The position numbers and the translations under genes were made by a program. A stretch of 39,965 nt of DNA from Candidatus Omnitrophota bacterium (lineage in GTDB: Bacteria > Omnitrophota > Gorgyraeia > Velamenicoccales > Velamenicoccaceae). The DNA lies in assembly GCA_028717105.1 (NCBI GenBank), contig JAQUOM010000002.1, forward strand, positions 1-39,965, given 5' to 3'. A model generated the notes under the pieces. It worked only from the letters and a program-made list of their open reading frames with translations, searched no databases and was not told where the DNA came from. Shown in pieces: positions 5,613 to 10,825 of the stretch (positions within the stretch are counted from its first letter, which is position 1; every line of letters starts with the position of its first letter).

Positions 5613-5954
5613 TTACCCGATAGCCACGCTACCGCATTCTTCCGTGCGGATACGGATACACTCTTTTAAGTCCAAGACGAAGATCTTGCCGTCTCCCGTC
5701 TCCCCTGTCTTGGCCCCCTTGACGATTGCTTTGATCGTCGGCTCAACATAGTTCTCGTTGACCGCAATCTCAAGGCGGATCTTGCGCAGGAGGTTCCCCA
5801 TTTCTTTAGCGCCGCGATAAACCTCTGTAACGCCTTTCTGGCGGCCATGGCCTAAAACTTCACTGACCGTCATCAGGTTGATCCCGGCCTCATAGAGCTC
5901 ATCCCGCACCGCCTCAAACCGGCCGGGCTGAACAATAGCGATAATAAGTTTCAT
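5613..5954 (-). CDS. P-II family nitrogen regulatory protein (copy 1)
   Basis: [20 protein letters not shown]...[14 protein letters not shown]...[14 protein letters not shown]. Confidence 0.95.
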
Positions 5955-5987
5955 GATCGACCCTCTCCTTTCTTGTCTAGAGATCGC

Positions 5988-7214
5988 CTATTCTATGATC
6001 GTATAGGCCCGTTCGTGGTGTTGGCTGAGATCCAAGCCTGCCTCTTCATCATTTTGCTCGATACGGATCCCCATCAACACGTCGATGACCTTATAAATGA
6101 CCAGGGTCGCGATGATGCAATAGGCCAACGTCGCGCCGACCGCGATCAACTGCTTCAAGAACAACTCGGACCCGCCGAAGAACAAGCCGTCCGCGCCGGC
6201 GGCATTCACGGCCCTGGATGCGAAAAGACCGGTAGCCAGAGCCCCCCAAATGCCTCCCACGCAATGAACGCCGAACGCGTCAAGCGCGTCGTCATAACCC
6301 ATCCTGGGCTTGATGATGGTCGCAGCGACATAACAAAAGACGCTGACCGCCAGGCCGATAATGATCGCAGGCACAACACTCACGAAACCGGCGGCGGGAG
6401 TAATCGCCACCAGCCCCGCCACGGCGCCGGACGCCACGCCGAACATCGTCGGTTTACCCACGCGCAGCCATTCGATCACCGCCCAGCTCAGGCCCGCGGC
6501 CGCCGCGGCTGCATGGGTCACGACAAACGCGTTGGCCGCCAGACCATTGGCCCCCAGAGCGCTGCCGGCGTTAAACCCGAACCAGCCAAACCACAATAAA
6601 GCCGTTCCCAAAACGACAAACGGCAGATTGTGCGGGGGCGGAATGCTCTTATCCAAACATTTTCTGCGGCCGATGACAACGGCTGTTACAAGGGCCGCAA
6701 TGCCGGCGTTGATATGGACAACTGTCCCGCCGGCAAAATCCAGGGCGCCGAGATTCCGGATCCATCCGCCGATACCCCAAACCCAATGGCACACCGGGTC
6801 GTAAACAAACGTTGCCCACAAGAGCGTAAAAACGACAAAGGCCGAAAATTTCATACGCTCGGCAAAAGCACCGATGATCAAAGCCGGCGTAATCACTGCA
6901 AACATCGCCTGGAAGATCATAAACGCCATATGCGGGATCGTCGCCGCGTAATCGGCGAACGGTTCCTGGCCGACGCCGTTGAGGCCCGCCCATTGCAGGC
7001 CGCCGATAAAGCTGTTTCCAGGAGCAAACGACAGGCTGTAGCCGAACAAAACCCATTGCAGACTCATCACGCACAAAATAATAAAACACTGCATCAAAAC
7101 ACTCAAGATGTTCTTCCGCCGGACCATGCCTCCGTAAAAAAATGCCAGGCCCGGGGTCATCAGCATGACCAAAGCCGATGAGATCAAAACCCATGCCGTA
7201 TCCCCAGAATTCAT
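5988..7214 (-). CDS. amt: Ammonium transporter (Amt family, copy 1)
   Basis: MTPGLAFFYGGMVRRKN, FAGGTVVHINAG, LWFGWFGFNAGSA. Confidence 0.95.
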   Translation of the reverse strand: MNSGDTAWVLISSALVMLMTPGLAFFYGGMVRRKNILSVLMQCFIILCVMSLQWVLFGYSLSFAPGNSFIGGLQWAGLNGVGQEPFADYAATIPHMAFMIFQAMFAVITPALIIGAFAERMKFSAFVVFTLLWATFVYDPVCHWVWGIGGWIRNLGALDFAGGTVVHINAGIAALVTAVVIGRRKCLDKSIPPPHNLPFVVLGTALLWFGWFGFNAGSALGANGLAANAFVVTHAAAAAAGLSWAVIEWLRVGKPTMFGVASGAVAGLVAITPAAGFVSVVPAIIIGLAVSVFCYVAATIIKPRMGYDDALDAFGVHCVGGIWGALATGLFASRAVNAAGADGLFFGGSELFLKQLIAVGATLAYCIIATLVIYKVIDVLMGIRIEQNDEEAGLDLSQHHERAYTIIE

Positions 7215-7226
7215 AACATTTCCTCC

Positions 7227-7251
7227 TTAATTCCGCCTCTGGCGGAATTAA
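7227..7251. repeat. Perfect 11-bp inverted repeat TTAATTCCGCC-TCT-GGCGGAATTAA next to the amt SD
   Basis: Direct reading; SD TCCTCCTT (complement) at 7221-7228 overlaps the arm. Confidence 0.85.
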
Positions 7252-7347
7252 CTCCGCAGCCTACGCAGTCAATTTCAGGAGCAGCCTCTGGCGCTTGCGA
7301 GTAAAATTGACGAGTGGTCAGGCAAGGAGTCTTTGTTCTAATTATCA

Positions 7348-7362
7348 TCCGCCTCGGGCGGA
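7348..7362. repeat. Hairpin TCCGCC-TCG-GGCGGA related to the 7227 element
   Basis: Direct reading. Confidence 0.6.
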
Positions 7363-7497
7363 ATGAGACCCTTCGCTGCTTTGAAATATCTCCCGTGACC
7401 TTTTGTTAATCCAATTGAATAAAAAAAATAAAAAAACCCTCCTTTCTATTTTTGAGGCCTTTTAAAAAACCACCCTTCATCACACAGGTTTAAAGCA

Positions 7498-7674
7498 TCA
7501 AATATTCAATCTCTCCTGCACAAGGCGAGCATAAACCCTGTTGATCCTGCCCGTCCTGAACCAACGCTCGATTGTTGCAACCTGGATATCCAGGATGCGC
7601 GATAGGTCGTATAACGTATAGTGCTTCTGCGCTTTTAATATTTGCACCCTCCGTATTAATTCAGGATCTCTCAT
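7498..7674 (-). CDS. 58-aa helix-turn-helix mini-protein between PII and Amt genes
   Basis: Hand translation: MRDPELIRRVQILKAQKHYTLYDLSRILDIQVATIERWFRTGRINRVYARLVQERLNI*; HTH-like LYDLSRILDIQVATIERWFRTG; absent from the track, whose shortest entries are 60 aa. Confidence 0.75.
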   Translation of the reverse strand: MRDPELIRRVQILKAQKHYTLYDLSRILDIQVATIERWFRTGRINRVYARLVQERLNI

Positions 7675-7704
7675 GATGACCTTTGCCTTGCGCGCGACGG
7701 GCCG

Positions 7705-8046
7705 TCAGATAGCGCCCTCGCCCGTTTCTTTGGTGCGTATCCTCATGACATCCGAAACAGGCGAAACAAATATCTTGCCGTCTCCTATCTCACCCGTCTG
7801 GGCCGCCCTGGCGATGACCTCCACGAACCTCACCGCGTCGCCATCGCTCACCACCGTCTCGATCTTGATTTTCGGCAGGAGGTCCACTTTGTATTCCCTG
7901 CCGCGGAATTGTTCCATCAAACCTTTCTGACGCCCGTGCCCTTCGATACGCATTACCATTAATCCCGGCGCGCCGGCACTTTTCAGGGCTTCCACAACGT
8001 CTTCCAATTTCTCTACGCGGATCACTGCTTCAATTTTTTTCATCAT
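7705..8046 (-). CDS. P-II family nitrogen regulatory protein (copy 2)
   Basis: MKKIEAVIRVEKLEDVVEAL...GHGRQKGLMEQFRGREYKVDLLPKIKIE...TGEIGDGKIFV. Confidence 0.95.
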   Translation of the reverse strand: MMKKIEAVIRVEKLEDVVEALKSAGAPGLMVMRIEGHGRQKGLMEQFRGREYKVDLLPKIKIETVVSDGDAVRFVEVIARAAQTGEIGDGKIFVSPVSDVMRIRTKETGEGAI

Positions 8047-8117
8047 GGCACCTCTTGTGGCAGATCAAAGAGGACCGGCGGTACGCCGAAACCGGCGCGC
8101 CGCCGGCCTTTCCTCGA

Positions 8118-9494
8118 TTATTGATTTAGCGTAACAAAATTCGGGTATGCGGGCGTCCCGTGTTCCGGGATATCCAACCCCTTAATCTCTTCAGCCGGAG
8201 AAACACGGATGCCGAAGAGTTTGTCCATGGCCTTAAACGCCAAAAACCCCAGGCCAAAAGCCCATGCCACACAGACAGCCGCGCCGATCGCCTGCGCCAG
8301 CAACTGGCCGAAACCGCCGCCGTAAAACAATCCGCGCACGAACGGTTCGCTCGTCGTCGCTAGTCCATAAGTCCCATCCGCGAAGAGGCCGACGCTCAGC
8401 AAACCCCAAACACCATTGATCCCATGAACGCTGACCGCACCGACAGGATCATCGACGCCTCTGGCCTCCCAGAAATAAACACCCATAACAACCAGAAAAC
8501 CGGCGACAATGCCTATGACGACAGCAGCCCATGCCTCGATCCATGCGCAAGGCGCTGTGACAGCAACCAGGCCTGCCAGACAGCCGTTCAGCATCATGCC
8601 CACATCCCATTTCTTCGTGCGGGCAAAAACCAAAAGGATCGCCGTTGCCGCTCCGGCTGCTGCAGCCAGGTTCGTGTTGACAGCGATGACAGCAATACGC
8701 AGCTGATGCGCCGAAAACGTAGAGCCGGGATTAAACCCGAACCAGCCGAACCAGAGAATAAATGTTCCCAGGGCAGCCAGAGTAATGCTATGGCCTGGAA
8801 TCGCCTTGGGCTTCCCGTCTTTGCCGAATTTACCAAACCTGGGTCCCAGGACCATGGCGCCTGCCAATCCGACAAAACCGCCGATGGTATGGACAACGCC
8901 GGAACCGGCGAAATCCAGATGGCCCAAGCCAAGAGGCAGCTTGGAAAGCCACCCGCCGCCCCAGACCCAATGGCCATAGATAGGATAAATCAGCGCGCTC
9001 ACAATGAGACTGTATAGAAAATACGCGCCAAATTTTAAGCGCTCCGCTACGGCCCCCGAGACGATCGTCGCTGCCGTTCCCGCAAAAACCAGCTGCCAGA
9101 AAAACATGAGATATCGTCCGACATCATAATTATCGCCGTGCAAAAACCAGCCCGTCGTCCCAAACAGGCCCTTGTAATCCTGCCCCATCATGAGAGCAAA
9201 ACCAAAAGCCATGAAACATAACGATGCGACGACAAAATCAATGGTATTTTTAGCCATGAGGTTCGTCGCATTTTTGACGCGGCAAAAACCAGCCTCCACC
9301 ATCGCAAAGCCGGCTTGCATAAAAAATACAAGAAAACCGCATAGAAGCACCCATGCATAATCGACGGGGGCTGTCGGCGTTGCGGCAAGGGTCGCGGCCC
9401 CGCCCGGATCCGCCGCCCAAACGACAGGCGCAAACCCCAGCGCTGCCGCCGCCAGCCCAAAACCGCTTCGGACTATTTTCCATAATGTTTTCAT
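8118..9494 (-). CDS. amt: Ammonium transporter (Amt family, copy 2; signal-peptide-bearing form)
   Basis: FFMQAGFAMVEAGFCRVKNATNLMAKN, FAGSGVVHTIGG, LWFGWFGFNPGST. Confidence 0.95.
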   Translation of the reverse strand: MKTLWKIVRSGFGLAAAALGFAPVVWAADPGGAATLAATPTAPVDYAWVLLCGFLVFFMQAGFAMVEAGFCRVKNATNLMAKNTIDFVVASLCFMAFGFALMMGQDYKGLFGTTGWFLHGDNYDVGRYLMFFWQLVFAGTAATIVSGAVAERLKFGAYFLYSLIVSALIYPIYGHWVWGGGWLSKLPLGLGHLDFAGSGVVHTIGGFVGLAGAMVLGPRFGKFGKDGKPKAIPGHSITLAALGTFILWFGWFGFNPGSTFSAHQLRIAVIAVNTNLAAAAGAATAILLVFARTKKWDVGMMLNGCLAGLVAVTAPCAWIEAWAAVVIGIVAGFLVVMGVYFWEARGVDDPVGAVSVHGINGVWGLLSVGLFADGTYGLATTSEPFVRGLFYGGGFGQLLAQAIGAAVCVAWAFGLGFLAFKAMDKLFGIRVSPAEEIKGLDIPEHGTPAYPNFVTLNQ

Positions 9495-9553
9495 GTGAAC
9501 CGCCTCTCCATCATTCATCATGTCTTCGGAATCAATGTTAAAACTCGATCTCC

Positions 9554-10333
9554 TTAAAACGTATACGCCAAACTGAATCCGCCCCAGAAACGCGATTTTT
9601 GAGCGCCGTCATCCGAAGCCGAAAGATCCGCAAAAGGGATCGTATAGTTCGCCTTGGGCTTGAACGAAAGGGATTTCATCAACGGGACCGTCAACCCTGC
9701 GCTCATGGTCGCCTGCCCTCCGTCTCCATTGATAAAGAGATGGTGGTTATACCCTGTGGTCACACCCAGGTCGAGCGAGATCCCGGGGTCCTTCATGACG
9801 ACCGTGCTATAGCCAAGCGCCAGCTCAAGATAATTCCCCGTACCGCCGCCGTTCTCCGTCGATCCGTAATCACGATAGAATTTCAGGCTGGTCGTGATGG
9901 GGATATCGGTCAACGGCAAGGTCGGACTTCCAATCCCTATATAGAATTCCCTGCTGTAACCGTTCGTCCCGGGAAAATCATAATAGGTATGGCCGATCGA
10001 GAGGCTGAACTTATCGAAGCTCTTGGTATAATCCACGATGAAATCCATCTCATCGGAATTAACCCCGTCCTCATTGTCTGCATCCCAGTTTGACCAGAAG
10101 CTGAAGGTCAACCCCTTATAGCTCATGTTAAAGGAAGGCTGGACAACGGGATCGCGGTCAAGCGTGAAACCCCTCCAGATATACTTCGAGTAAAAATCAA
10201 CGGCGCCTGAAGCCGTGATGCCGATTTTGGAAAATAACCCCTCCCCTTCTTCTGCGAATACACTACCCACACAAACCATCGCGAACAAACAACATAGAAC
10301 AAACCCGAACGATTTACGCATGCGCCGACTCAT
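9554..10333 (-). CDS. Putative outer-membrane beta-barrel protein (porin-like), first gene of the Amt/PII cluster
   Basis: Signal peptide, SGAVDFYSKYIWRGFTLDRDPVVQPS, alternating beta-strand pattern, C-terminal aromatic ...GGFSLAYTF. Confidence 0.7.
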   Translation of the reverse strand: MSRRMRKSFGFVLCCLFAMVCVGSVFAEEGEGLFSKIGITASGAVDFYSKYIWRGFTLDRDPVVQPSFNMSYKGLTFSFWSNWDADNEDGVNSDEMDFIVDYTKSFDKFSLSIGHTYYDFPGTNGYSREFYIGIGSPTLPLTDIPITTSLKFYRDYGSTENGGGTGNYLELALGYSTVVMKDPGISLDLGVTTGYNHHLFINGDGGQATMSAGLTVPLMKSLSFKPKANYTIPFADLSASDDGAQKSRFWGGFSLAYTF

Positions 10334-10409
10334 ATAAGCATCCTTTTTTGGCATATGATTTGTATTTTCAATTCTTAGTCAAGAGCACAGCCATGTGCCA
10401 AATGATCCG

Positions 10410-10431
10410 CCCGCCACAAATCTCTGGCGGG
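10410..10431. repeat. Hairpin CCCGCCA-N8-TGGCGGG
   Basis: Perfect 7-bp arms; near copy of the 10619-10642 hairpin. Confidence 0.7.
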
Positions 10432-10454
10432 TTGTTATCTCCGGACTAGTCCGG

Positions 10455-10498
10455 AAAAAACAAAACGTCCAAAAAGACTTCTTGGTCTCTTTGGACGT
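10455..10498 (-). terminator. Leader terminator T2 (candidate attenuator)
   Basis: 14-bp stem ACGTCCAAAGAGAC/GTCTTTTTGGACGT (one G-T wobble), loop CAAGAA, then TTTTGTTTTTT on the minus strand. Confidence 0.85.
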
Positions 10499-10500
10499 CA

Positions 10501-10591
10501 ATATCCACTTATCGGCAACAACTGCCGCTATCTTTTAGGCCCTCACCGGCCCCGGGTCACTGCGGTATTTCTTTTTCGCAGTTATACCGCA
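10501..10591 (-). ncRNA. Structured leader segment (candidate cis-regulatory RNA)
   Basis: Hairpins TGCGGTAT-N15-ATACCGCA and CGGCA-N5-TGCCG plus a GC-rich junction directly upstream of T2. Confidence 0.4.
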
Positions 10592-10618
10592 CATATATCT
10601 CATCCTTGGCACTGATCC

Positions 10619-10642
10619 ATCCGCCACAGAACGTTGGCGGAT
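10619..10642. repeat. Hairpin ATCCGCCA-N8-TGGCGGAT
   Basis: Perfect 8-bp arms; near copy of the 10410-10431 element. Confidence 0.7.
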
Positions 10643-10655
10643 TTTGTTCGGACAA

Positions 10656-10689
10656 TTAACTTACGTCAGCCATCGTTTCCGTAAGTTAA
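10656..10689. repeat. Perfect 10-bp inverted repeat TTAACTTACG...CGTAAGTTAA
   Basis: Direct reading. Confidence 0.8.
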
Positions 10690-10697
10690 GTCCTCAC

Positions 10698-10734
10698 AAA
10701 AAAAGAGGCATCCTCCGACGGAGAACGCCTCTTT
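10698..10734 (-). terminator. Intrinsic terminator T1 downstream of the ABC-F gene
   Basis: AAAGAGGC...GCCTCTTT with nested CTCC/GGAG, T7 on the minus strand. Confidence 0.8.
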
Positions 10735-10768
10735 GCTGCTTGACACACACACTGTGCCTTACAATGTA

Positions 10769-10796
10769 ACTATATCACATAACGGATGGATGTCAA
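10769..10796 (-). promoter_or_regulatory. Predicted sigma70 promoter TTGACA-N16-TATAGT
   Basis: Minus strand CCTTGACATCCATCCGTTATGTGATATAGT between the ABC-F stop and T1. Confidence 0.55.
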
Positions 10797-10825
10797 GGTA
10801 TTCTGCGAAAATAGGCAATATTTTT

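Follow-up and report, generated by a model that had tools for sequence, protein, structure and literature searches.

The leader of an ammonium-uptake operon in a Candidatus Omnitrophota genome is very probably an ANTAR-type antitermination switch arranged in series, whose two default-on terminators would be cancelled by a GAF-ANTAR protein under nitrogen limitation; by this reading, the switch is bound by a protein and is not a riboswitch. Leader and operon lie on the minus strand of the window, the 39 965-nt stretch of DNA that was analysed, which belongs to a 1.6 Mb draft genome in 160 contigs. Downstream of the leader, the operon (5613–10333) contains, in order, a porin-like outer-membrane gene (9554–10333, from its translation) and, by domain match, Amt (8118–9521), P-II (7705–8046), a second Amt (5988–7214) and a second P-II (5613–5954). 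The porin-like gene starts at the ATG at 10333, with a second in-frame ATG at 10354; it is present in 31 of 197 genomes, and its product has no Pfam family match. The best matches to the window's Amt (86 and 84% identity) are in Candidatus Omnitrophota. Proteins 69–73% identical to it are found on Caldatribacterium, Thermodesulfobacteriales and Dehalococcoidia contigs (four loci), a distribution that suggests transfer of Amt between phyla.

The leader region folds at z = −7.1 relative to 100 shuffled sequences, and six terminator-like sites were observed against 0.5 expected by chance. Every feature named in the original prediction, from the promoter to the hairpin at 10410–10431, is present on the minus strand where it had been placed, and its anatomy is real as far as it went; it missed the hexaloop hairpins on the 5′ arms of both terminators. 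In line with its statement that the second terminator, T2, has no upstream open reading frame, the minus strand between T1 and T2 contains none of at least 60 aa. A search for tRNA and tmRNA genes found none.

In published ANTAR targets, each of a pair of hairpins presents a hexaloop with A1 and G4, and P2, the downstream one, overlaps an intrinsic terminator (PMC3369931); the linker between the hairpins is 2–25 nt long (PMC8164766), being 5–12 nt in Enterococcus faecalis eut. The first module of the leader follows this layout in outline. A promoter at 10769–10796 (TTGACA-N16-TATAGT, 11 of 12 consensus positions) predicts a transcript start at about 10762. It is followed by P1 (10742–10758), an ANTAR-type hairpin with A1 and G4, GGCAC-AGTGTGT-GTGTC, identified by alignment A3 and by a match to the R2 model (see below), and by P2 (10726–10737), an ANTAR-type hairpin AGC-AAAGAG-GCG identified by alignment and fold. 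The intrinsic terminator T1 (10698–10734; 15 pairs, −22.6 kcal/mol, T7) begins about 25 nt into the predicted transcript, so that RNA polymerase would be through it after about 60 nt, and its 5′ arm is overlapped by P2. The 4-nt linker between P1 and P2 is within the 2–25 nt range and just below that of eut. Most of the class has a P1 loop of 6 nt; in the window's genome it is 7 nt long, or 5 nt when folded for minimum energy. P2 has two firm pairs and a folding energy of −0.8 kcal/mol in the window's genome, and three pairs (TGC-AAAGAG-GCA) in G006 and G007, the other two members of the genus.

The same design recurs across the class. Leaders share a block composed of an (A/G)CAC-A..G..-GTGT hairpin, a short linker, an AAC-A..G.C-GTT hairpin and a terminator whose 5′ arm starts inside the second hairpin. 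In A3, an alignment of 19 leader sequences of the same operon, G4 is invariant in the P1 and P2 loops (19 of 19) and A1 is present in nearly all. Changes on both sides are seen at four of the five P1 pairs and at three pairs of the T1 stem, which is 98.5% paired in the 19 sequences. None of the three P2 pairs shows such changes; the P2 sequence is nearly constant, and consequently P2 has no covariation support of its own. Conservation and covariation thus both extend outside this strain, and attenuation, as originally proposed, stands unrefuted.

The second module repeats the arrangement about T2 (10455–10499), an intrinsic terminator with TTTTGTTTTTT, 15 pairs including G-U and −21.4 kcal/mol. 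Its 5′ arm is overlapped by P2′ (10492–10507), a strict A1/G4 hexaloop hairpin TGGAT-ATTGAC-GTCCA with five pairs and −4.4 kcal/mol, whose counterparts are GGAT-AGAGAC-GTCC in G006 and GGAT-GGCGAC-GTCC in G007. A candidate first hairpin, P1′ (10513–10527; CGGCA-GTTGT-TGCCG), was found by genus alignment and fold, and is separated from P2′ by a 5-nt linker, again within the 2–25 nt range. In G006 and G007, its stem is CGGCT/AGCCG and CGGC/GCCG, respectively, and its loop is ATTGA; the GTTGT loop of the window's genome lacks A1.

Hexaloops on terminators that follow T1 recur in many families, three loci even having a third terminator, and several families have a T2 hairpin with no obvious first partner. 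In T2-type loops, G4 is present in 25 of 25, position 1 varies (14 A, 8 G and 3 T), and one stem pair alternates between A-U (15) and G-C (11); the covariation of the whole helix scores above most, not all, shuffles. An A1/G4 or G1/G4 hexaloop on the 5′ arm of a terminator was found in 24 and 29 of 96 cases in the leader loci, compared with 0 of 62 control terminators from elsewhere in the same genomes. We therefore read T2 as a putative second attenuator of the ANTAR kind on the same operon. The original prediction offered attenuation of the nitrogen operon as one role for T2, and this is the best reading, a conserved hexaloop hairpin overlapping its 5′ arm.

Several further elements accompany T2. 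A palindrome, TCCGGACTAGTCCGGA, follows it (10440–10455) and is kept within the genus. The next hairpin, CCCGCCA-N8-TGGCGGG with GGATCA (10410–10431), is identical to the second hairpin of a dispersed repeat described below, yet every one of the three genus members retains it. About 50 nt before the porin ATG is a third hairpin with an A1/G4 hexaloop, GGCAC-ATGGCT-GTGCT (10384–10399), which is conserved in G006 and G007 and has no terminator; it is possibly an element of translational control or a remnant. A sigma-54 promoter at TTGGCAC...TGTGCT near 10400 was considered and rejected, since its −24/−12 spacing is off by one and the genus-conserved hairpin fits better. Upstream of T2, an 8-bp hairpin, TGCGGTAT/ATACCGCA, with a 15-nt loop (10560–10592) sits in non-conserved spacer.

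The proposed regulator is encoded in the same genome. The ANTAR domain (PF03861) occurs in 143 of the 197 genomes of the class, nearly always once per genome, and the window's genome has exactly one such protein (E 6.9e-22), a GAF-ANTAR protein of 231 aa (contig C12; L236 2874–3569) whose gene is directly upstream of an NAD synthetase gene with a carbon-nitrogen hydrolase domain. In its ANTAR part, this protein is similar in sequence to the EutV, Rv1626 and NasR structures; the GAF part matches NifA-like GAF domains. R2, a covariance model of P1-P2-T1 with a seed of 19 sequences, matches in 122 of the 197 genomes; its match in the window has a score of 47 bits (E 2.8e-8), a value that, like those of several other leaders, is partly by construction because these sequences are in the seed. 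Both R2 and ANTAR are present in 115 genomes, ANTAR only in 28, R2 only in 7 and neither in 47 (Fisher p = 2e-18, kinship ignored), and for 30 of the best 82 R2 matches an ANTAR gene lies no more than 5 kb away. Six genomes have the ANTAR gene just upstream of the porin-Amt operon. One R2 match, before a CrcB gene (contig C60), was without the hairpins and was set aside.

According to the proposed mechanism, a transcript from about 10762 would meet T1 and, some 240 nt further on, T2, and by default T1, T2 or both would end transcription before the porin-Amt-PII-Amt-PII genes. By the folding energies given above, both terminators outcompete P2 and P2′, and therefore a protein that holds the loops would be needed. 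Once activated by a nitrogen signal, GAF-ANTAR would bind the A1/G4 loops of P1 and P2, and those of P1′ and P2′. As the 5′ arms of T1 and T2 start within P2 and P2′, holding these hairpins would prevent the terminators from forming, and the operon would be expressed. The signal is probably nitrogen status, perceived through the GAF domain. Here, we infer binding, default termination, the direction and nature of the signal and the cooperation of the two sites. The weak points of the ANTAR reading are the 7-nt P1 loop and 2-pair P2 of the window's genome, and the partner hairpin of T2 that is missing in several families.

Other nitrogen genes of the genus carry similar leaders. R2 matches precede gltB at orthologous places in all three members, each of them weak (E 0.03–0.08), and the terminator in the gltB leader carries GGAT-AAAGAC-GTCC, with the same stem as P2′. 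A gltD-like operon likewise has a weak R2 match (E 0.03–0.08) and GAC-AAAGAC-GTC on its terminator at three loci; because the locus is at a contig end in the window's genome, we infer its gltD-like gene from G006 and G007. Both gene names were assigned by reading translations. A nitrogen-assimilation regulon of this kind is what an ANTAR system predicts. Elsewhere in the class, one genome (G172) has an ANTAR-type leader directly before a gene named from its translation as a hydroxylamine-reductase-like (hybrid cluster) protein.

Just upstream of 23 of 27 class leaders is a rigid motif, GTTACCA-N15-TACTT, which in several families overlaps the 3′ end of an ECF-like sigma factor gene (encoding ..GYQK); an ECF-like sigma factor dedicated to the nitrogen operon is possible. 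The window's genus has a sigma-70-like promoter in its place. A broader scheme, which we put forward tentatively and would not yet bet on, is that one GAF-ANTAR protein and serial attenuators, with two or three terminators per leader, run ammonium uptake and glutamate synthase in Omnitrophota. Downstream terminators would be served by a single hexaloop, forming a relay of three loops that would break with the two-hairpin rule, and many families would add a dedicated upstream ECF-like sigma factor with its own promoter motif.

How the two terminators share the work can be read differently. T1 may be the only working ANTAR site, with T2 and its hairpins as back-up or decaying copies; R2 picks T1 best, the P1′ loop is altered in the window's genome and T2 hairpins have no clear partner in several families. 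However, within the genus P2′-T2 is as conserved as T1, its G4 is found throughout the 25 T2-type loops, T2-type stem pairs change together and the P2′ stem is reused at gltB, all of which makes this reading unlikely, if one to be kept in mind. A converse division, whereby T1 is a plain ABC-F terminator and T2 acts alone, either in controlling the operon or as the end of a small RNA of its own, is very improbable. T1 does lie about 90 nt past the ABC-F stop and could end read-through transcripts, in line with the original view that it can serve ABC-F, and it may indeed also stop ABC-F read-through. However, between T1 and the ABC-F stop is a promoter that is conserved in the genus. From the −35 and −10 elements through P1 and P2 to T1, the sequence hardly differs among the three members of the genus, unlike that from the ABC-F stop to the promoter, a pattern that places T1 in the operon leader. 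In other families, the promoter-P1-P2-T1 block precedes the operon behind unrelated genes, and P1-P2-T1 lies directly upstream of Amt at four loci. On the strength of these arrangements, we regard T1 as a predicted attenuator of the porin-Amt-PII operon, and not mainly as the ABC-F terminator.

Two other explanations concern what else the leader RNA could be. The hairpins between T1 and T2 fold strongly, and their two-hairpin unit is found in many places with compensating stem changes, as would be expected if they formed a functional structured RNA of their own. However, they belong to a dispersed repeat, whose copy here (10613–10697, 85 bases, from a covariance model and the genus alignment) includes both the perfect 10-bp repeat TTAACTTACG/CGTAAGTTAA and, at 10619–10642, the 8-bp hairpin ATCCGCCA/TGGCGGAT, two elements that had originally been counted as parts of the leader. 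The covariance model finds about 30 copies in the window's genome and tens in several relatives, and of 59 class genomes 38 have matches; its E-values are rough and its weak copies possibly generic hairpins. Other copies are in unrelated intergenic places, among them the fabG–acpP interval and a site upstream of a ketosynthase gene, and the repeat is absent from the leader site in G006 and G007. We consequently treat it as an insertion in the T1–T2 spacer; its hairpins are, by this evidence, not part of the switch, the two-hairpin element was dropped as a regulatory RNA and a separate structured RNA at this site has very little chance of being correct. Least probable of all is a riboswitch that binds a ligand such as glutamine, an ammonium-related metabolite or a cyclic dinucleotide. 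The leader is a structured nitrogen-operon leader with terminators, as a riboswitch could be. However, none of the Rfam covariance models matched it at gathering score, and a relaxed threshold gave chance-level matches, in keeping with the original view that it fits no known riboswitch class; what is conserved in it amounts to minimal A1/G4-loop hairpins, with no larger conserved core, and the spacer between T1 and T2 is unconserved even within the genus.

The dispersed repeat has the consensus ATGAG-NNCC-ATAACTTACG...CGTAAGTTAT-NN-GGNC-GAATT followed by the second hairpin. Many Omnitrophota genomes contain it, and its copies often lie directly behind stop codons or ahead of ribosome-binding sites; some copies form inverted pairs with a common second hairpin. 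It resembles REP/BIME elements in being short, palindromic and intergenic, with tens of copies that are sometimes in inverted pairs. It differs from them in its TGAG-type foot, in its two hairpins with a GAATT-type joint and in not lying beside Y1 transposase genes. No Y1_Tnp genes were found in the window's genome, and 20 Y1 loci in relatives gave a single weak repeat match (E 0.009); with no Y1 transposase gene nearby, classification as a RAYT REP element was rejected.

The preferred reading, serial ANTAR-kind antitermination, replaces a guess at a new riboswitch with a known protein-based mechanism. For an uncultured phylum, it supplies a concrete and testable rule of nitrogen control, and it names the regulator and part of the regulon (porin-Amt-PII, gltB and the gltD-like operon). 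The serial layout also raises the question of whether one ANTAR dimer, or two, would serve two terminators, and whether a single hexaloop is enough. ANTAR control as such is known; the phylum is one for which we found no paper on it, in a search that covered literature outside subscription journals, and the arrangement is a serial variant of that control.

As seen across the class, the Omnitrophota leader shares with the targets of EutV (Enterococcus faecalis eut), NasR (Klebsiella nasF) and AmiR (Pseudomonas amiE) two A1/G4 hairpins with a short linker (PMC3369931), the second on the 5′ arm of a terminator; its genes are likewise nitrogen genes, and an ANTAR protein is present in the genome. 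Unlike those targets, it has two attenuators in series, the second often with one evident hairpin. Its regulator is a GAF-ANTAR protein rather than a receiver- or NIT-ANTAR protein, and its phylum is Omnitrophota. In other phyla, ANTAR targets have been predicted ahead of genes for P-II, ammonium transporters and glutamate synthase, and the predicted regulons of Desulfotomaculum and Pelobacter comprise these genes and also nitrogenase (PMC3369931). Several ANTAR sites per unit are already known, since D. acetoxidans has 13 sites in six transcription units (PMC3369931). The Omnitrophota arrangement differs from these regulons in its retention across a class. What may be new here is this class-wide retention of serial attenuators, of which the later ones often carry a single hexaloop hairpin.
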